Positions 37,146-45,301 of a stretch of DNA of 64,000 bases are shown here, piece by piece; within the stretch, counting starts at the first letter, position 1, and each line of letters begins with the position of its first letter. The stretch lies in the NCBI RefSeq assembly GCF_000428825.1, contig NZ_AUAR01000002.1, positions 248,001 to 312,000 on the forward strand. The letters are read 5' to 3'. The notes under the pieces were generated by a model, which saw nothing but the letters and a program-made list of their open reading frames with translations, had not been told where the DNA came from and did no database searches. This DNA comes from Desulfomicrobium escambiense DSM 10707 (GTDB lineage Bacteria > Desulfobacterota > Desulfovibrionia > Desulfovibrionales > Desulfomicrobiaceae). Both the position numbers and the translations under genes were made by a program.

Positions 37146-39068
37146 CTATTTCTGCCTGTCGTTGACGAAGTTGAGCAAACCGCCCGCCTTGATAATGGCT
37201 ATTTCATTACCCGTCAAATCATGGCCGAGCGCGATCCGTCGGCCTTCGGCCGTCGTGGCCTCAAGGGGCTGCCCGGCGGCCAGGGCCGTCAGGTCGAAGC
37301 GCAGGACCGCGCCCTGGGCCAGGGCGTCGTAGTCCGCCGGGTCGGCCAGGACCAGGGGCAGGATGCCGAAGTTGATCAGGTTGGCCTTGTGGATGCGGGC
37401 GAAGGACTTGGCCAGGACGATGCGCACACCGAGGTGGCGCGGGGCCAGGGCCGCGTGTTCGCGGCTGGAGCCCTGGCCGTAGTTGTCGCCGCCCAGGATG
37501 AGGCCCTGGCCGGCGGACTCGGCGCGGGCCACGAAGTCCTTGTCCACGCGCTCGAAGACGTGGCGGCTGATGGCCGGGATGTTGGAGCGCAGGGCCGTGA
37601 TGGCCGCGCCGGCCGGCATGATGTGGTCCGTGGTGATGTTGTCGCCGACCTTGATCAGCACCGGCAGTTCCATGGTGTCGGGCAGTCTGTCGAAGGGCGA
37701 GAGGGCGACGATGTTGGGCCCGCGCACGATTTCCACCGCGGAGCCGTCTTCGGGCGGGAAGGCGAAGAGGTGCCGGATGGACGGGGCCGAGGACGGCAGG
37801 GACGGCTTGGAGACGGCCTTGGTCCAGCCCGCGGGGTCGGTGAACTTGCCGTTCAGGGCGCAGAAGGCCGCGGTCACGGGGCTGACCAGATAGACTTGGC
37901 CGTCCTGGGTGCCGCTGCGGCCCTCGAAGTTGCGGTTGAAGGTCCGGGCGCTGACGCCGTGGCTCGATGGCGAGCCGCCCATGCCGATGCACGGGCCGCA
38001 GGAGCACTCCAGGAGCCGGCCGCCGGCGTCGAGGATCTTATCCAGGAGGCCTTCGGCCATGAGCATCTTGAGGACCTGCTTGGAGCCTGGCGAGAGCAGC
38101 AGGTCCGTGTTCGGCGCGATGTGCTCGCCGTGCAGGACCTGGGCCACGGCCTGCAGGTCGGAGTAGGAGGAGTTGGTGCAGGAGCCGATGGCCACCTGAT
38201 CCACGGTCAGGCCGTCGAGTTCGGCCACGGGCACGACCAGGTCGGGCATGTGTGGACGGGCCGCCAAGGGCGCAAGGGTGCTCAGGTCGATGACGATCTC
38301 GCGGTCGTACTCGGCGCCGTCGTCGGCGGCCAGGGGCGCGAAGTCCGCCTCGCGGCCCATGAGGGCCAGGAACGCGCGGGTCTGCTCGTCGCTGGGGAAG
38401 ACGGAGGCCGTGGCGCCCAGTTCCGCGCCCATGTTGGTGATGGTCGCGCGCTCGGGCACGCTCAGGCTGGCCACGCCGGGGCCGCAGTACTCCATGACCG
38501 CGCCCACGCCGCCCTTGACGGTCAGCACGCCCAGCAGGTGCAGGATGACGTCCTTGGCCGAGGCGTGCCCGGTCAGTTCGCCTTCCAGGCGGATCTTGAA
38601 GACCTTGGGCATGGTGATGGTGTAGGGCTCGCCGGCCATGGCCAGGGCCACGGACAACCCGCCGGCGCCCATGGCCAGGCTGCCGATGCCGCCGGCCGTG
38701 GGGGTGTGGGAGTCGGAGCCGATGAGGGTCTTGCCCGGGACGGCGAAGTTCTCAAGATGCAGCTGGTGGCAGATGCCCGTGCCGGGAGGCGAGAAGACTA
38801 TGCCGTACTTGGCCGCGACGCTGCGCAGGTAGCGGTGGTCGTCGGGGTTGCGGAAGCCCATCTGCAGGGTGTTGTGGTCCACGTAACTGACGGAGAGCTC
38901 GGTCTTGACCCTCGGCAGGCCGATGGCCTCCCACTGCAGGTAGGCCATGGTGCCGGTGGCGTCCTGGGTCAGGGTCTGGTCTATCCTGATGGCCACTTCC
39001 CTGCCGGGCGTCATGTCGCCTTCGACGAGGTGCGCCGCGATGATCTTCTGGGTCAGGTTCTGTTTCAT
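37146..39068 (-). CDS. aconitate hydratase
   Basis: This [4Fe-4S] enzyme interconverts citrate and isocitrate. The 640-aa protein contains both the large catalytic domains and the small swivelling domain. Cluster ligands are in SCTNSS near residue 290 and CGPCIGMGG near 355. The N-terminal GSDSHTPTAGGIG carries conserved active-site residues. It belongs to the short (~650 aa) aconitase group found in anaerobes, not the ~900-aa AcnA/AcnB forms. AAGGAGCATCC precedes the ATG. A fused 3-isopropylmalate dehydratase is a less likely reading. Confidence 0.9.
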   Translation of the reverse strand: MKQNLTQKIIAAHLVEGDMTPGREVAIRIDQTLTQDATGTMAYLQWEAIGLPRVKTELSVSYVDHNTLQMGFRNPDDHRYLRSVAAKYGIVFSPPGTGICHQLHLENFAVPGKTLIGSDSHTPTAGGIGSLAMGAGGLSVALAMAGEPYTITMPKVFKIRLEGELTGHASAKDVILHLLGVLTVKGGVGAVMEYCGPGVASLSVPERATITNMGAELGATASVFPSDEQTRAFLALMGREADFAPLAADDGAEYDREIVIDLSTLAPLAARPHMPDLVVPVAELDGLTVDQVAIGSCTNSSYSDLQAVAQVLHGEHIAPNTDLLLSPGSKQVLKMLMAEGLLDKILDAGGRLLECSCGPCIGMGGSPSSHGVSARTFNRNFEGRSGTQDGQVYLVSPVTAAFCALNGKFTDPAGWTKAVSKPSLPSSAPSIRHLFAFPPEDGSAVEIVRGPNIVALSPFDRLPDTMELPVLIKVGDNITTDHIMPAGAAITALRSNIPAISRHVFERVDKDFVARAESAGQGLILGGDNYGQGSSREHAALAPRHLGVRIVLAKSFARIHKANLINFGILPLVLADPADYDALAQGAVLRFDLTALAAGQPLEATTAEGRRIALGHDLTGNEIAIIKAGGLLNFVNDRQK

Positions 39069-39143: not shown

Positions 39144-39392
39144 TCACCAGGTGGATGTGAGACGTCGCAGCTTGACCTGCAGGAACTGGATCTCCGTGTC
39201 CATGCGCAGCTTGTCCTGCTGCAGGTGGAAGATCTCTTCGTGAAAGGTCACGCCCTGGGCCGGGTCCTCGCGCTGCAGCAGATCCTGGACCCGGGCCTGG
39301 ATGGCGGCCTGCTCCGTCCGGATGCGGTCGATGTCCCGCTCGATGGCCTCAGTCTGTGGAGATTCTGATGCGCTTGCGCTTGGGCTTGTCAT
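39144..39392 (-). CDS. small coiled-coil protein overlapping the CM/EPSPS-like gene
   Basis: This 82-residue chain with no known family is predicted to be a long amphipathic helix or coiled coil from about residue 15 to 75, rich in Glu, Gln, Arg and Leu. The ATG lies 44 nt inside the 3' end of the upstream gene in another frame, and there is no strong Shine-Dalgarno, so translation would depend on coupling. It is followed by the operon's terminator, which supports it as the last gene. It might be a partner of the CM/EPSPS-like protein (inference). Confidence 0.6.
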   Translation of the reverse strand: MTSPSASASESPQTEAIERDIDRIRTEQAAIQARVQDLLQREDPAQGVTFHEEIFHLQQDKLRMDTEIQFLQVKLRRLTSTW

Positions 39393-41001
39393 CGCGGGTT
39401 TCGTCTTCCTTTTCTTCGCTGCGCGGCTGGTTGATGAAGTTCTGGGGGTCCGGGAGATTCATGAAGATCTTCCAGAACCAGGGCCATGCGGAGGTGATGT
39501 TGTCGGCGTTGCTCATGCACAGCCCGGGATGGGTGAAGGAGATGAGCGCGCCCGCCAGGGTCCAGTAGGGACCGGGGCTCTGCCAGGGCGACTCGCCGGA
39601 TTTCCTGTTCGCCTGGGGCGAGGCGGGGAGCCCGACCTGCAGGAGCCCAGGCTCGATGGAGTAGCCCGCGCCGAGGTTTTCGAGCATGTCCTGGGCGTAC
39701 TCGACGTCTTCACGGGAGGTGTCCAGGGTGATGGCGCACTTGCCGCGCAGGCCCATGGCCATGGCCAGGACAAGGGGCAGGTACTCCTGGCAGCATGTAA
39801 GATCAATGGAAAGCTGCTTGGGCCTGTTGCCCATGCGCGAGGAGATCTGGTCTGAGCCGATGTTGATGCGCAGGCCGAACTCATGAAGGATGTCCATGAC
39901 GTCCTGGAGGTGCGGCGCATGCTCCGGCCACTTGCCGTGCAGCACCACGTTGCCATCCACGAAGAACGGCAGAGCGAGCAGGTGCAGGCTCATGAGCGGG
40001 TCCACCGGGATGTCGACGGAGGAAAGATCAAGACTCAGCGGCGCGGGCGGAACGATGATGGCGGTCCCTTCGTACTGCAGTTCCGGGAGGTACTGCTGCA
40101 GGAAGACGATGCCCTTGCGCAGGAGCTTGCTGCCTGCGTAGGACTCGTGCAGGCGGATGGTCAGGCCGGATTTGAACGTGGTTGCGGCCACGGCCAGGGC
40201 GAGGATGAACTTTCTGGACACGCCCTCGGGGATGAAGATGGTCTCGGGCAGCTGTCCGCTCGATTCCACGCGCACGGGCACGCCGTTGCTGTGCGGTTCG
40301 ACGATGGTCAGCCGGGCGCCGAGCTTGGGCAGAAGGTCCTGGACCGGCCTGACATCGTGAATTTTCAGTTTGGTCGAGCCCGTGAACTTGGCCCGAGTCA
40401 CCTTGCCCAGCGCGAGGCAGAGCAGGAGATAGAAATGGAACTTGCTCTGGCCGGCGTAAATGATCTTGTTGTCGAGGGACCATGACGAAACCGGCTGTGT
40501 CGAGCACGCGCGGTTCTGGAAGGTCAGGTTGAAGCCGCAGAGGTTCAGCGCGTTGATGAGTTCCAGAGATATGTCGTTGCCCTGGAACGGGGCCACCGTC
40601 AGGGGTGCGGGATTCGTGGCGCCGAGAAAGAACATCATGCTACGCAGGATCTGGTCGCGCGGTGCCGAGAGGTCGATGTTGACGGGTTTGCGCCTGGGAT
40701 AGAGGCACAGGGGCTTCTCGTTGGAGGCGTTTCGCTCGACGCGGGCGTAGGAAAGATTGTTGGTCAGGTGGAAGATCTTCTTGAGGATCTGGGGCTCCAG
40801 ATTGTCGCCCTTTGACGTATCCCTCCAGACTTGCCACAGGACCTTTTCCTGATTCGGGTCGGTGATGCCCAGGTTTTTTGCCCGGCGGGACGCCGCCGCC
40901 CGCGACAGCAGGCTGGTGCGCGCGGCGATGAGGGATACGAGGCGTTCGTCGAGCTGCGCCAATTCCTGGGTGAGTGAGAGGGTCGTGTGTTTTTCGGCCA
41001 T
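39349..41001 (-). CDS. chorismate mutase-like / EPSP synthase-like fusion, apparently degenerate
   Basis: This 550-aa protein has an N-terminal AroQ chorismate-mutase-like helical region (LTQELAQLDERLVSLIAAR) up to about residue 95. A long domain with the repeated fold of EPSP synthase (AroA) follows, and it ends in a very basic tail (KPKRKRIR). Compared by eye with the families, the CM part lacks the first catalytic Arg and has Gln in place of the later one. The AroA part lacks the G-S-K-S and G-N-A-G-T substrate loops and the D-H-R block. It may be a regulatory or scaffold protein in aromatic synthesis. Start uncertain: ATG 41001 is used; ATG 41037 is possible; neither has a strong ribosome site. 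Confidence 0.6.
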   Translation of the reverse strand: MAEKHTTLSLTQELAQLDERLVSLIAARTSLLSRAAASRRAKNLGITDPNQEKVLWQVWRDTSKGDNLEPQILKKIFHLTNNLSYARVERNASNEKPLCLYPRRKPVNIDLSAPRDQILRSMMFFLGATNPAPLTVAPFQGNDISLELINALNLCGFNLTFQNRACSTQPVSSWSLDNKIIYAGQSKFHFYLLLCLALGKVTRAKFTGSTKLKIHDVRPVQDLLPKLGARLTIVEPHSNGVPVRVESSGQLPETIFIPEGVSRKFILALAVAATTFKSGLTIRLHESYAGSKLLRKGIVFLQQYLPELQYEGTAIIVPPAPLSLDLSSVDIPVDPLMSLHLLALPFFVDGNVVLHGKWPEHAPHLQDVMDILHEFGLRINIGSDQISSRMGNRPKQLSIDLTCCQEYLPLVLAMAMGLRGKCAITLDTSREDVEYAQDMLENLGAGYSIEPGLLQVGLPASPQANRKSGESPWQSPGPYWTLAGALISFTHPGLCMSNADNITSAWPWFWKIFMNLPDPQNFINQPRSEEKEDETRDDKPKRKRIRISTD

Positions 41002-41133
41002 TCGGTTCGCTTCGGGGCTAGGGTGTTGCTGGTTCATGGGTAGATGAACGCATTGATTACTCAGGGAACAATAGGGTTGTTTAACAATAATAAGGTACGG
41101 ATTGCAAGGGCTTGTTGGCGTGCAAGATCGCAA

Positions 41134-41318: not shown

Positions 41319-42587
41319 ATGGCTCTCGTACCCCCGCATGGTGGAAAAGGTTTGGTTTGCTGTCTGCTTCAGGGCGCTGAACTCGCTGCCGAGCAGAAGA
41401 AGGCCGAAGGTCTGAAGAAGATCGACATCAGCCCCCGCGCCAAGGGCGACCTGATCATGATGGGCATCGGCGGGTTCAGCCCGCTGAACGGCTTCATGTC
41501 CAAGGCCGATTGGAAGTCCGTTTGTGAAAACTTCACGCTGGCCGACGGCACCTTCTGGCCCGTGCCCGTGACCCTGGATATGGACGAGGCAGTGAAGGTC
41601 GGTGAAGAGATCGCCCTGTTCGACCCCAAGAAGGGCGTTTTCATGGCGACCATGAAGGTCACCGAAGTGTACGAAATGACCGAAGCCGACAAGAAGTGGG
41701 AATGTGAAAAGGTCTACAAGGGCCAGGGCGAAGAGTCCGCTGATGACAAGTTCTGGGAAATCGCCCCGAAGGATCACCCCGGCGTGCAGATGGTCATGGC
41801 TCAGAAGAAGTTCAACGTCGCCGGCCCGGTCAAGGTTCTGTCCGAAGGCGACTACCGCGACAGATTCCCCGGCTGCTACATGACCCCGGCCGAAGCCCGC
41901 AAGACTTTCGAAGAGAAGGGTTGGAGCAAGGTCGCCGCTCTGCAGCTGCGCAACCCCATGCACCGTTCCCACGAGTTCCTGGCCAAGATCGCTGTTGAAG
42001 TGTGCGACGGCGTGTTCATCCACTCCCTGGTCGGCAACCTGAAGCCCGGCGACATCCCGGCCGAAGTGCGCATCAAGTGCATCGACACCCTCATCGACAA
42101 GTACTTCGTGAAGGCCAACGTCGTGCAGGGCGGCTACCCGCTCGACATGCGTTACGCCGGTCCCCGCGAAGGCCTGCTGCACGCCACCTTCCGCCAGAAC
42201 TACGGCGTTTCCGACATGCTGATCGGCCGTGACCACGCCGGTGTCGGCGACTTCTACGGCCTGTTCGAGGCCCAGGAAATCTTTGACCGCATTCCCAAGA
42301 ACCTTGGCGCCGGCAAGGACCTGGTCACCCAGCCCATGAAGATCGACTGGACCTTCTACTGCTACAAGTGTGACGGCATGGCCTCCCTGCGCACCTGCCC
42401 GCACGGCAAGGAAGACCGCGTGGTCCTGTCCGGCACCAAGCTGCGCAAGGCCCTGTCCGAAGGCGCTCCCGTCGCCGACCACTTTGGCCGCGACGAAGTC
42501 CTGGAAATCCTGCGCGAATACTACTCCTCTCTGACCGAGAAGGTCGAGATCAAGATGCAGAGCCACGCTGCTGCGACCAAGATGTAG
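41319..42587 (+). CDS. sat: sulfate adenylyltransferase (ATP sulfurylase)
   Basis: This enzyme activates sulfate with ATP to adenosine phosphosulfate, the first step of dissimilatory sulfate reduction in the cytoplasm. The 422-aa homo-oligomeric type has the nucleotide motif [11 protein letters not shown] near residues 208-218, GRDHAG near 305 and a metal-binding Cys set [16 protein letters not shown] near 348. Strong AGGAGGA precedes the ATG. Codons are biased to the preferred set, as expected for one of the most abundant proteins. It is followed by aprBA and qmoABCD but has its own terminator and, apparently, its own promoter. Confidence 0.98.
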
Positions 42588-42787: not shown

Positions 42788-43276
42788 ATGCCAACCTTTG
42801 TTGATCCAGCAAAGTGTGATGGATGCAAGGGCGGTGAGAAGACTGCCTGCATGTACATCTGTCCTAACGACCTGATGATCCTGGACCCCGTTGAGATGAA
42901 GGCTTACAACCAGGAGCCGGCCGCTTGCTGGGAATGTTACTCCTGCGTCAAGATCTGCCCCCAGGGCGCGATCACTGCCCGCCCCTACGCCGACTTCGCT
43001 CCCATGGGCGGCACCTGCATCCCGCTGCGCGGCGCTGAAGACATCATGTGGACCGTCCAGTTCCGCAGCGGCGAAGTGAAGCGTTTCAAGTTCCCCATCC
43101 GTACCACTGTTGAAGGTTCCATCAAGCCTTTCGATGGCAAGCCCGAACCCGGCGATCTGGAAAGCGAACTGCTGTTCACCGAGTCTGCCCTGGCCACCCC
43201 GAAAGAGGCCCTTGGCAAGAAGATCGAAGTTGGTGAAGCCGACCTGAAGGTCACCTTCAAGTCCGCCGTCGCCTAA
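42788..43276 (+). CDS. aprB: adenylylsulfate reductase beta subunit
   Basis: This is the electron-transfer subunit of APS reductase, with two [4Fe-4S] clusters passing electrons to the FAD of AprA. The 162-aa chain starts with the diagnostic CDGCKGGEKTACMYICPND (residues 10-28). The second set, CWECYSCVKICPQGA, lies near 47-61. The C-terminal tail that wraps around AprA is present. TCGGAGGAATT precedes the ATG. It is the first gene of the aprBA transcript, with aprA 39 bp downstream. Confidence 0.98.
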   Translation: MPTFVDPAKCDGCKGGEKTACMYICPNDLMILDPVEMKAYNQEPAACWECYSCVKICPQGAITARPYADFAPMGGTCIPLRGAEDIMWTVQFRSGEVKRFKFPIRTTVEGSIKPFDGKPEPGDLESELLFTESALATPKEALGKKIEVGEADLKVTFKSAVA

Positions 43277-43315
43277 TTCTGGGCTTTGTAACGCAAGAAA
43301 TTTCAGGAGGAACAC

Positions 43316-45301
43316 ATGCCTCAGATTCCTGTTAAAGATACGATCAAGGGCCTGGCCCTTGCTGAGCCGGAAGTTGTTGAGCTTGAAACCGACATTCTCA
43401 TGGTCGGCGGTGGTATGGGTAACTGCGGCACGGCGTTCGAAGCCGTGCGTTGGGGCGATCCCCTCGGTGTGAAGATCATGCTGGTCGACAAGGCCGCCAT
43501 CGACCGCGGCGGCGCGGTTGCCCAGGGTCTGTCCGCCATCAACACCTACATCGGTGAAAACAACTCCGACGACTATGTCCGCATGGTCCGCACCGACCTC
43601 ATGGGCCTGGTCCGCGAAGACCTGATCTTCGACCTGGGCCGCCACGTCGACGATTCCGTCCACCTGTTCGAAGAGTGGGGCCTGCCCTGCTGGATCAAGA
43701 AAGACGGCAAGAACCTGGACGGCGCCCAGGCCAAGAAAGAAGGCCTGTCCCTGCGCAAGGGTGACGCCCCTGTCCGTTCCGGCCGCTGGCAGATCATGAT
43801 CAACGGTGAATCCTACAAGGTCATCGTTGCGGAAGCCGCCAAGAACGCCCTGGGTTCCGACCGCTACATCGAACGCCTGTTCATCGTGAAGCTGCTCCTC
43901 GACGCCAAGGTCTCCAACCAGATCGCCGGCGCCGTGGGCTTCTCCGTTCGCGAAAACAAGGTGTACATCATCAAGGCCAAGGCCATGTCCGTGGCTTGCG
44001 GCGGCGCCGTCAACGTGTACCGCCCCCGCTCCACCGGTGAAGGCCTCGGCCGCGCCTGGTATCCCGTATGGAACGCCGGTTCCACCTACACCATGTGTGC
44101 TCAGGTTGGCGCCGAAATGACCATGATGGAAAACCGTTTCGTCCCCGCCCGCTTCAAGGACGGTTACGGCCCGGTCGGCGCTTGGTTCCTGCTGTTCAAG
44201 GCCAAAGCCACCAACGCCAAGGGTGAAGACTACTGCGTCACCAACCGCGCCATGCTGAAGCCCTACGAGGATCGCGGCTACGCCAAGGGTCACGTCATCC
44301 CGACCTGTCTGCGTAACCACATGATGCTGCGCGAAATGCGTGAAGGTCGCGGCCCCATCTACATGGACACCGCCACCGCTCTGAACACGACCTTCGCCAC
44401 CCTGTCCAAGGCCGAGCAGAAGCACCTTGAGTCCGAAGCTTGGGAAGACTTCCTCGACATGTGCGTCGGCCAGGCCAACCTGTGGGCCGCCATGAACATC
44501 AAGCCCGAAGAGCGCGGCTCCGAGATCATGCCCACCGAACCCTACCTGCTCGGCTCCCACTCCGGCTGCTGCGGCATCTGGGTTTCCGGTCCGAACGAGC
44601 CTTGGGTTCCCGAGGAATACAAGGTCAAGGCCGCCAACGGCAAGGTCTACAACCGCATGACCACGGTCAACGGTCTGTTCACCTGCGCTGACGGCGTCGG
44701 CGCTTCCGGTCACAAGTTCTCCTCCGGTTCGCACGCTGAAGGCCGCATCGTCGGCAAGCAGATGGTGCGCTACTGCGTGGACCACAAGGACTTCACCCCC
44801 ACGCTGAACGTGTCCGCCGACCAGCTGAAGAAGGAAATCTATCAGCCTTGGTACACCTTCGAGCAGTTCAAGGGCGCGTCCACCGATCCGGTCGTCAACC
44901 CGAACTACATCACCCCGAACAACTTCATGATGCGCCTGATCAAGGCCACCGATGAATACGGCGGCGGTGTTGCCACCCTGTACACCACTTCCGACAGACT
45001 GCTCGACACCGGCTTCGCCCTGCTCGACATGCTGGAAGAAGACTCCCAGAAGCTGGCCGCCCGTGACCTGCACGAACTGCTCCGCTGCTGGGAACAGTAC
45101 CACAGACTGTGGACCGTTCGTCTGCACATGCAGCACATCCGGTTCCGTCAGGAAAGCCGTTACCCCGGTTTCTACTATCGTGCCGACTTCATGGGTCTGG
45201 ACGATGCCAAGTGGAAGTGCTTTGTTAACTCCAAGTTCAACCCGGCCACTGGTGAAACCGAGATCTTCAAGAGACACTACTACCAGATCATCCCTGACTA
45301 G
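43316..45301 (+). CDS. aprA: adenylylsulfate reductase alpha subunit
   Basis: This FAD enzyme reduces APS to sulfite and AMP. The 661-aa chain starts with the FAD-binding motif DILMVGGGMGNCGTAFEA near residues 24-41 and contains the substrate-site regions RGGAVAQGLSAIN and SGSHAEGRIVGKQM. Length and sequence are of the sulfate-reducer type rather than the reverse-acting sulfur-oxidiser type, consistent with QmoABC next door. AGGAGGAACAC precedes the ATG. Codon bias indicates very high expression. A strong terminator follows the stop. Confidence 0.98.
   Translation: MPQIPVKDTIKGLALAEPEVVELETDILMVGGGMGNCGTAFEAVRWGDPLGVKIMLVDKAAIDRGGAVAQGLSAINTYIGENNSDDYVRMVRTDLMGLVREDLIFDLGRHVDDSVHLFEEWGLPCWIKKDGKNLDGAQAKKEGLSLRKGDAPVRSGRWQIMINGESYKVIVAEAAKNALGSDRYIERLFIVKLLLDAKVSNQIAGAVGFSVRENKVYIIKAKAMSVACGGAVNVYRPRSTGEGLGRAWYPVWNAGSTYTMCAQVGAEMTMMENRFVPARFKDGYGPVGAWFLLFKAKATNAKGEDYCVTNRAMLKPYEDRGYAKGHVIPTCLRNHMMLREMREGRGPIYMDTATALNTTFATLSKAEQKHLESEAWEDFLDMCVGQANLWAAMNIKPEERGSEIMPTEPYLLGSHSGCCGIWVSGPNEPWVPEEYKVKAANGKVYNRMTTVNGLFTCADGVGASGHKFSSGSHAEGRIVGKQMVRYCVDHKDFTPTLNVSADQLKKEIYQPWYTFEQFKGASTDPVVNPNYITPNNFMMRLIKATDEYGGGVATLYTTSDRLLDTGFALLDMLEEDSQKLAARDLHELLRCWEQYHRLWTVRLHMQHIRFRQESRYPGFYYRADFMGLDDAKWKCFVNSKFNPATGETEIFKRHYYQIIPD

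Follow-up and report, generated by a model that had tools for sequence, protein, structure and literature searches.

A conserved protein of the Desulfovibrionales that joins chorismate mutase-like and EPSP synthase-like folds appears to be a pseudoenzyme

Between aconitase and sat, in a stretch of Desulfomicrobium DNA of 64,000 nucleotides (the window), there is a gene whose product joins an AroQ-type chorismate mutase (CM)-like segment to a fold like that of EPSP synthase (EPSPS, AroA). The question it raises is what use a cell could have for a protein in which both active sites appear to be gone. A preliminary description had placed the gene between aconitase and sat, away from aro genes, which is indeed the case, and there is also a small coiled-coil ORF between the gene and aconitase. 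The open reading frame given there, 39349-41037, is real and translates from 41037 on the minus strand into 562 aa, but the coding sequence more likely begins at 41001, as two relatives, L012 and L017, have a stop in frame at most three codons 5' of the Met that matches residue 13 (MAEKH). A scan of the intergenic region at this gene for promoters and terminators gave no score above those of shuffled sequences. The neighbouring genes are given below, with neighbour counts from 39 loci picked by hand, about one per genus and favouring closer relatives, several of which end at contig ends.

35196..37097, minus strand: PpiD/SurA-like peptidyl-prolyl isomerase, a frequent downstream neighbour (29 of 39 loci)
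37146..39068, minus strand: aconitase, a frequent downstream neighbour (28 of 39 loci)
39144..39392, minus strand: small coiled-coil ORF of 82 aa that passes the cut-off of no Pfam family, sharing 44 nt with the 3' end of the pseudoenzyme gene (such overlaps, counted from the first possible start codon, are upper bounds)
39349..41001, minus strand: probable CDS of the CM-EPSPS-like pseudoenzyme (550 aa), from the ORF list and the start comparison; the earlier, longer start is 41037
41319..42587, plus strand: sat (ORF as listed), the divergent neighbour in Desulfomicrobium
42788..45301, plus strand: aprB and aprA
45407: qmoA, after aprBA

Within the protein (P0001), four features can be placed.

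39361..39381, minus strand: basic C-terminal motif, KRKRIRI in Desulfomicrobium, conserved in orthologs
39448..40716, minus strand: EPSP-synthase fold, residues 108-530, with catalytic positions lost (19 of 20), from AF2, Foldseek, VIA, hhalign and the residue table
40264..40578, minus strand: all ten family-specific conserved polar positions, residues 154-258, from a filter of the family against canonical AroA
40729..40974, minus strand: AroQ (chorismate mutase type II) fold of three helices, residues 22-103, from CM_2, alignment, model, VIA and profile

The two-lobed enolpyruvyl transferase fold of the larger half is recognised on a predicted model (AF2, pLDDT 91.6), which matches EPSPS by Foldseek (E 8.1e-25) and, by VIA, the M. 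tuberculosis enzyme 2bjb (Z 35.3, 3.1 A over 402 residues), and hhalign against EPSPS gives a probability of 99.94. A profile built from 46 relatives recovers E. coli (Ec) EPSPS at E 4.4e-28, and CM_2 and EPSP_synthase are the only domains found in these 46 members at E<=0.001. For the Desulfomicrobium protein itself, PF00275 is not listed in the Pfam search at E up to 10, and the equivalog TIGR01356 scores 35.6 bits (E 4.5e-9), well under its cut-off of 287.25. RNA 3'-phosphate cyclase, presumably a related fold, is absent among the structural matches listed for this half, which excludes nothing.

The Ec EPSPS catalytic set, which we take to include K22, S23, R27, N94, R100, R124, S169-Q171, D313, K340, E341, R344, H385, R386 and K411, was placed by motif. 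In the Desulfomicrobium protein 19 of the 20 alignable positions are replaced, with S169 alone still Ser and N336 in a gap. Of the 20 mapped positions, 19 have the same residue in 16 or more of 17 canonical AroA, and N94 is shared by 13. Among the 46 family members the canonical residue occurs in no more than 11, at S169, and at 14 of the 20 positions no single residue reaches half of the family. Three positions have a new majority residue (R100 to Y in 32, H385 to P in 30, and S169 to P in 25 of 46), which would suggest that the old cleft is not wholly free of constraint. Judged by these alignments, the EPSPS active site has been lost and no one conserved set has taken its place. The absence of G-S-K-S, G-N-A-G-T and D-H-R blocks from the preliminary description holds for SKS, GNxGT and DHR, but by profile alignment the Ser of Ec S169 is still present.

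The AroQ half matches Pfam CM_2 (36.1 bits where 27 is the cut-off, E 7.8e-9) and its predicted model (pLDDT 93.2) has the three-helix AroQ topology on VIA, with Z of 10.7 to 5go2 and 10.5 to the next CM-like domain, in the range (under about 13) that can be common among helical bundles. The three-helix AroQ fold is thus indicated by CM_2, by VIA and by the predicted model. The two best matches, 5go2 and 5j6f, are CM-like domains fused to DAHP synthase, and VIA rows 1-29 are all chorismate mutases or isochorismate-pyruvate lyases (Z 10.7 to 6.1). Foldseek found no match to this half at E < 0.001, and its profile finds the chorismate mutases 2gtv (E 6.8e-6) and 1ecm (E 6.6e-5), both ranked under two designed coiled coils.

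The CM catalytic residues, presumably Ec R11, R28, K39, R51, E52 and Q88, were placed via an equal-length profile match to 1ecm. Among 51 aligned orthologs the equivalents of R28 (R40) and E52 (E64) are invariant, that of D48 is kept in 47, and that of K39 is R or K in 45, being R in Desulfomicrobium. At the R11 position there is an Arg in just four, with T23 in Desulfomicrobium; the R51 position is Q in 20 and L in 19, with no Arg among the residues listed; and the Q88 position is A in 27 and V in 9, with no Gln among the residues listed. The AroQ residue set is therefore incomplete and the CM site, as aligned, is degraded, the R28 and E52 equivalents staying while R11 and R51 are gone. By eye, the CM part had been said to lack the first catalytic Arg and to have a Gln for the Arg ahead of a conserved Glu; both observations are borne out (Ec R11 as T23, Ec R51 as Q63 before E64). 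So is the joining of AroQ-like helices to a full AroA-like fold (CM_2 match, AroQ Z 10.7, EPSPS Z 35.3), and the profile search and modelling that had been proposed find both folds, with no intact catalytic set aligned in either half. On sequence grounds the protein is a pseudoenzyme.

Other loci of the Desulfomicrobium genome encode ordinary versions of AroA, CM, prephenate dehydratase and DHQS-II, so the pseudoenzyme is not the EPSP synthase that works in this organism. Across the order Desulfovibrionales, 271 of 297 genomes have an ordinary AroA that scores over its cut-off, which answers the earlier suggestion that relatives be checked for a normal AroA. The CM-EPSPS-like gene is matched in 272 of the 297; all 25 genomes without it were checked, and it has been lost in two lineages. 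A single-protein scan of genome contigs matched seven close relatives and nothing else, and among the matches listed for 395 sampled genomes of the phylum the full-length ones are confined to this order of mostly sulfate reducers. Two origins were considered and rejected. For an intact CM-AroA fusion outside the order as ancestor, the outside matches listed in the phylum sample begin no earlier than position 64 of the profile, and most of their ORFs are the size of ordinary AroA. For descent from the order's own AroA, a tree of 21 of the 46 members and 24 AroA sets the 21 apart as a clade on a long branch (support 0.83, midpoint root), and the order's AroA groups with other AroA; the family profile scores other lineages' AroA at up to 167 bits against 78.5 bits for the order's own.

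Within the family, other residues have become conserved. Across 413 positions, family-specific conserved polar residues are present at 154, 159, 162, 165, 166, 217, 225, 242, 256 and 258, with none beyond residues 154-258; five gap columns flagged as conserved (338, 474-477) were left out. The tail, described before as very basic, does carry KRKRIRI, conserved in relatives. A motif of three basic residues and a hydrophobic or basic one within the last 45 residues is present in 54 of 70 orthologs, an R-R-I/V tail in 14 of the remaining 16, and the motif is absent from all 175 neighbouring ORF products that served as controls. In 12 of 58 relatives, although not in Desulfomicrobium, the N-terminus is extended by an Arg/Lys-rich low-complexity segment.

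These residues could belong to a new enzyme or a small-molecule sensor, in which either the newly conserved positions or the remnant CM pocket (R40, R51, D60, E64) would bind or convert a small molecule. That R242, E258 and R or K at 256 are found in 46 of 46 members where canonical AroA varies would fit this, as would the presence of R40 and E64 throughout the aligned orthologs. However, the classical EPSPS cleft is mostly not conserved, the CM pocket is two arginines short, and the new polar positions are confined to one stretch, whereas EPSPS chemistry draws on both lobes; this explanation is unlikely. The new reaction suggested in the preliminary description is improbable in the old EPSPS cleft, since most cleft positions differ between family members; binding or catalysis may take place at a new site.

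It is quite unlikely that the protein regulates or scaffolds aromatic amino acid synthesis, its CM part sensing prephenate or chorismate and its dead EPSPS part docking on AroA or partners. Both halves derive from that pathway, the AroQ half is structurally closest to the CM-like domains of 5go2 and 5j6f, the equivalents of Ec R28, K39 (R/K), D48 and E52 persist as counted above, and there is precedent in the fungal QUTR-type repressors, described in PMC10512348 as presumably inactive proteins related to shikimate enzymes. Genera g17 and g21, which are without the CM-EPSPS-like gene, have aroA no more than 8 kb from aprA in 11 of 14 genomes, in an aro operon, ordinary by eye, that is divergent from aprB. 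Replacement of the gene by an aro operon at the apr locus was nevertheless not accepted: the adjacency is absent in G094 (g21), was not resolved in G036 and G296, and falls within a single clade of the tree of AprA (from which two short fragments, L064 and L078, had been dropped), so that it is treated as possibly a single event. The Desulfomicrobium gene, moreover, is outside the aro operon of its own genome. Against a regulatory part stands G102 (99% complete, 4 contigs), which keeps the gene at full length while aroC, prephenate dehydratase and DHQS-II were not found and the best aroA match is weak (E 9.0e-26). G185 also keeps it without aroC and DHQS-II and with a weak best aroA match, though prephenate dehydratase is present. 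A part in making aromatic amino acids is weakened by both genomes. Of the earlier reading, the keeping of both folds with loss of both active sites stands, and a role in aromatic amino acid synthesis, given G102, is not supported.

The neighbourhood points to another pathway. Gene order is widely conserved as qmo-apr-sat, CM-EPSPS-like gene, small coiled-coil ORF, aconitase, PpiD; aprB is nearby in 29 of the 39 loci and sat in 24, in 11 of these on the strand of the pseudoenzyme gene. This, together with full-length matches listed solely in an order of mostly sulfate reducers, could mean that the protein binds or regulates Sat, AprBA or Qmo in sulfate activation or reduction. Such a role is improbable: of the 46 genomes in which no aprA reaches E<=1e-100, 44 retain the gene. 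Restricting the count to those with a completeness of 90% or more and a contamination of 5% or less gives, by arithmetic, 31 of 31, and 23 genomes with an aprA match are without the gene. An APS reduction role drawn from synteny alone was rejected after the order-wide aprA search. By these searches, the gene is present whether or not APS reductase is, and in one near-complete genome apparently even without the chorismate pathway. The small coiled-coil ORF, downstream in 35 of the 39 loci, was not found by profile in 7 of 19 loci of aprA-less genomes, G102 included, which suggests that the coiled-coil partner is not obligatory.

That the gene is in decay and retained by chance is scarcely credible: in G048 (same genus, one contig) it is in two pieces in different frames, and there are the two lineage losses, but dN/dS of 0.047-0.118 in five within-genus pairs refutes decay and indicates a maintained protein, residues are invariant across all six sampled families of the order, and the gene is retained in a small genome of 1.7 Mb.

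With both active sites lost, yet the gene kept in nearly all Desulfovibrio-type bacteria, apparently including one without aromatic amino acid synthesis, the dead CM-EPSPS fusion probably now serves some other use. The reading that we favour, at a little short of even confidence, is that the protein, a neofunctionalised pseudoenzyme, now works as a non-catalytic binding scaffold or adaptor; both the scaffold role and the partner are inferred. In AroQ enzymes the helices dimerise, and by analogy those of the pseudoenzyme may be a dimerisation module, with the EPSPS body as a rigid platform. Two elements would do the binding, a putative face of newly conserved polar residues (N154, E159, N165, K217, K225, R242, R256, E258) and the flexible basic motif at the C-terminus, joined in relatives that have it by the Arg/Lys-rich N-terminal extension. 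The scaffold might then sit on a polyanionic partner (RNA, a ribonucleoprotein or DNA) in a general cell process, the partner being the least certain step; where possible, the coiled-coil protein encoded by the overlapping ORF would act alongside the scaffold. A narrower version, for which we have rather low confidence, is an order-specific housekeeping scaffold that binds RNA or ribonucleoprotein, combining a CM-type dimer, the dead EPSPS body, the new polar face and the C-terminal arginine motif with, in several lineages, an RG/charged-rich disordered N-terminus, and surviving in a small genome without sulfate activation or aromatic amino acid synthesis.

Present in 272 of the 297 genomes searched in the order, and often a neighbour of the sulfate-reduction core, the protein is without a family model of its own: there is no dedicated one in Pfam or NCBIfam, no title or abstract opening found in the literature search names the family, and a term search of the main text of the D. 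vulgaris TnSeq paper (PMC10102598) gave no mention of it. The protein could be misnamed a chorismate mutase or EPSP synthase, and genome-based calls of pathways or glyphosate targets should not count it as aroA or CM. It is a case of two enzyme folds losing their active sites under strong selection, in which natural experiments (the apr losses and the aromatic pathway loss) point away from both obvious roles.

QUTA is grouped with the shikimate-derived regulators of the QUTR type. The fungal repressors QUTR, GaaX and TanX are likewise related to shikimate enzymes and reused for regulation, and their inactivity is called a working hypothesis in PMC10512348. Those repressors are eukaryotic, are assembled from different AROM domains (shikimate kinase, dehydroquinase, shikimate dehydrogenase) and are tied to known catabolic pathways, whereas the protein described here shows no such link and its 46 members carry no AROM-derived set. 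MurA shares the enolpyruvyl transferase fold (Z about 27) and is further than EPSPS in structure and sequence. With EPSP synthase the whole two-lobed fold is common (Z 35.3 to 2bjb), although 19 of 20 mapped catalytic positions are replaced, a new polar set is conserved, and TIGR01356 gives 35.6 against 287.25 bits. From AroQ chorismate mutase the equivalents of Ec R28, K39 (as R), D48 and E52 are kept, and those of R11, R51 and Q88 are not. The AroQ topology is also that of the DAH7PS-CM proteins (B. subtilis AroA(G) and Geobacillus DAH7PS-CM, type I-beta DAHP synthases; Z 10.7 and 10.5), a class to which this protein does not belong, since the CM domain is joined there to DAHP synthase and here to a dead EPSPS fold.

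The fusion gene called in the preliminary description, there with a start at 41037, is borne out, and the features of the window that concern it are as follows.

39349-41001, minus strand: fusion gene (longer start at 41037), in which a chorismate mutase (CM) domain of the AroQ fold is joined to an EPSP synthase (EPSPS) fold
39144-39392, minus strand: small coiled-coil ORF, between the fusion gene and aconitase

The start at 41001, which would give a protein of 550 aa, is more likely than that at 41037, because in two orthologous loci (L012, L017) there is an in-frame stop at most three codons upstream of the Met equivalent to residue 13 (MAEKH). The 562-residue count of the preliminary description (P0001) is retained for residue numbers. 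In another genome of the genus, assembled as one contig, the fusion gene is in two overlapping pieces in different frames (G048:C1:1322836-1324475), through either a frameshift or a sequencing error.

Profile searches and structural modelling support the proposal that AroQ-like and full-length AroA-like folds are joined in this protein. Pfam CM_2 matches residues 23-93 (E 7.8e-9) and NCBIfam aroA residues 150-437 (E 4.5e-9, yet with 35.6 bits where the cut-off is 287.25); in the alignment of 46 orthologs (A1), CM_2 is matched by 34 members and Pfam EPSP_synthase by 27 at E<=0.001, and NCBIfam aroA by 44. The A1 profile matches E. coli EPSPS at E 4.4e-28 over chain residues 6-418 of 427, and the AlphaFold2 model built from A1 (pLDDT 91.6, pTM 0.88) has EPSP synthases as its closest solved structures (Foldseek E 8.1e-25), with Z 35.3 and 3.1 Å over 402 residues to 2bjb in VIA. 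Modelled alone, the CM part is predicted to form three helices in the AroQ order (pLDDT 93.2). In VIA its Z is 10.7 against a CM-like domain of B. subtilis and 10.5 against Geobacillus DAH7PS-CM, values of about 10 being possibly common among helical bundles by the tool's own warning, and rows 1-29 are all chorismate mutases or isochorismate-pyruvate lyases. Foldseek gives no match with E <0.001 for the CM part alone. Its profile matches two CMs: 2gtv, at E 6.8e-6, and that of E. coli, 1ecm, at E 6.6e-5 with 72 positions aligned to 72 residues. Two designed coiled coils rank above both.

The E. coli residue numbers used here are those that we take to correspond to positions of the fusion protein. 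Of 21 catalytic or substrate-binding positions of EPSPS, placed by motif, 20 align, N336 falling in a gap. At 19 of these positions at least 16 of 17 canonical AroA sequences share one residue, and at N94 13 do; in the fusion protein 19 are replaced and S169 alone is still S. Across the 46-member family the canonical residue is found in at most 11 (the maximum, at S169). At 14 of the 20 positions even the commonest residue is in fewer than half of the members, three have a new majority residue (R100 to Y in 32, H385 to P in 30, S169 to P in 25), and three stand at exactly half, with 23 members each (T97 to F, D313 to E, K340 to P). It follows from these residue counts that the old EPSPS cleft has lost its chemistry and, by the mapped positions, does not hold one new conserved site. 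That the protein has a new small-molecule site, the main rival to the proposed scaffold function discussed below, is quite unlikely.

In the CM half, the equivalents of R28 and E52 (R40 and E64) show no variation among 51 orthologs, that of D48 (D60) is D in 47 and that of K39 (R51) is basic (R or K) in 45. The R11 position is R in just four; at the R51 position Q is found in 20 and L in 19, and at the Q88 position A in 27 and V in 9. The earlier claim that both active sites are dead is supported, the CM half having lost the R11 and R51 equivalents while keeping R40 and E64. As judged from the defining residues of those enzymes, the fusion protein is neither an EPSP synthase nor a chorismate mutase.

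The fusion gene encodes a conserved pseudoenzyme under purifying selection. In five within-genus pairs from four orthologs, dN/dS is 0.047-0.118 for the gene as a whole; the EPSPS half gives 0.058-0.132 and the CM half, computable for four pairs, 0.006-0.082. Synonymous sites are close to saturation in four of the five pairs. In the Desulfovibrionales, the gene is present in 272 of the 297 genomes searched, representing 50 of the 55 genera; outside the order, the matches listed in the phylum search are AroA-like alone. In the 25 genomes without it, the family profile gives either nothing or partial AroA- or MurA-like matches, and an aprA match is present in 23. Four genera (g17, g21, g32, g34) account for 21 of the 25 and g49 for one; the other three are assemblies that are 66-84% complete. 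In a midpoint-rooted AprA tree of 39 sequences, including 11 of the 21, the four genera group in a single clade, with g49 outside it; in the g49 locus (L147), PpiD, aconitase, the small ORF, sat and apr are in place and the fusion gene alone is missing. In g17 and g21 (L137-L143), aroA is at most 8 kb from aprA in 11 of 14 genomes, and by eye there is an ordinary aro operon (DHQS-II, CM/prephenate dehydratase, AroA) divergent from aprB, at the usual place of the fusion gene.

There is no aprA at E<=1e-100 in 46 of the 297 genomes, and the fusion gene is kept in 44 of these (all but G077 and G072), against 228 of the 251 with aprA; by family cut-off, the figures are 52 of 55 against 220 of 242. 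With completeness of 90% or more and contamination of 5% or less required, 243 genomes remain. Of these, 31 lack aprA, and by deduction all 31 have the fusion gene, since the 21 that are without it all carry aprA. In 19 loci inspected from genomes without aprA above cut-off, the fusion gene is present in 19 and the small ORF in 12. In genome G102 (99% complete, four contigs), aroC, prephenate dehydratase and DHQS-II were all searched for and none was found, the best aroA match being at E 9.0e-26, where genuine aroA of the order is at about 1e-100; the fusion gene is kept (profile positions 4-535, E 6.1e-116). In genome G185, aroC and DHQS-II were not found and the best aroA match is at E 3.2e-24; prephenate dehydratase is present and the fusion gene is again kept. 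The fusion protein is therefore not required for sulfate activation nor, in G102 and G185, for aromatic amino acid synthesis, and the retention in these two genomes speaks against the role in the latter that had been suggested.

The gene does lie away from other aro genes, as had been noted: an ordinary AroA (C12:19603, E 8.1e-112, above cut-off), CM (C12:18503), prephenate dehydratase (C12:18749) and DHQS-II (C12:17544) are on contig C12 of the same genome. Related genomes also carry a normal AroA, above cut-off in 271 of the 297.

In 39 loci (that of the window and 38 others, selected at roughly one per genus), aprB is nearby in 29, PpiD in 29, aconitase in 28 and sat in 24, the last on the same strand as the fusion gene in 11 and on the opposite strand in 13. 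The small coiled-coil ORF, for which there is no Pfam family above cut-off, is downstream in 35 of the 39, and overlaps the fusion gene in all 35 if the first start codon is taken. In the window, the 44 nt at 39349-39392 are in two frames, as the conserved basic tail and the beginning of the small ORF.

Of 70 orthologs, 54 carry, within 45 residues of the C-terminus, a motif of three basic residues and then a hydrophobic or basic residue. Of the remaining 16, 14 have R-R-I or R-R-V in this region, and in L049 and L053 the basic stretch is looser. The motif is absent from all 175 products of neighbouring ORFs at these loci (29 PpiD, 28 aconitase, 4 small ORF, 24 Sat, 29 AprB, 29 AprA, 25 QmoA-like, 7 HD). 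Overlap with the small ORF is not the explanation of this tail, because it persists where no small ORF is detected downstream, as with NRRRIITE in G102. Of 58 orthologs, 12 have an R/K-rich N-terminal extension (up to 50 residues ahead of the CM part, R or K at least 20%, hydrophobics at most 20%, start codons being placed mechanically), in which repeats such as RGERPERGERSERGER occur; the Desulfomicrobium protein has none. Long low-complexity Arg/Gly/Asp/Glu repeats extend the N-terminus upstream of the CM part in L189, L070 and L075.

The 413 positions of the EPSPS half were filtered for charged or amide residues with the charge class kept in at least 80% of the family and shared with at most 8 of the 17 canonical AroA sequences. 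This yields ten positions (154, 159, 162, 165, 166, 217, 225, 242, 256, 258), all inside residues 154-258, which presumably lie within one lobe of EPSPS. R242 and E258 are present in 46 of 46 members and position 256 is R or K in all; 162 and 166 are close to the filter limit, and the Desulfomicrobium protein deviates at both.

Taken as a whole, a scaffold or adaptor is our tentative reading of the fusion protein, at just short of an even chance; that it is specifically directed to RNA or RNP is rather doubtful. Such a scaffold would dimerize through its AroQ helices and bind through the newly conserved polar residues and the basic tail, perhaps to a polyanionic target, and the small coiled-coil protein may be its partner where present.

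None of the papers listed in the literature searches is on this CM-EPSPS-like fusion family. Fungal QUTR-type repressors are presented as catalytically inactive relatives of AROM domains, as a working hypothesis (PMC10512348), and to that extent would be the same kind of case, inactive relatives of enzyme domains. The fusion protein differs in being built of other domains, in another kingdom, and with no shown pathway link. The fusion protein would be a case of a known kind, the neofunctionalised pseudoenzyme.
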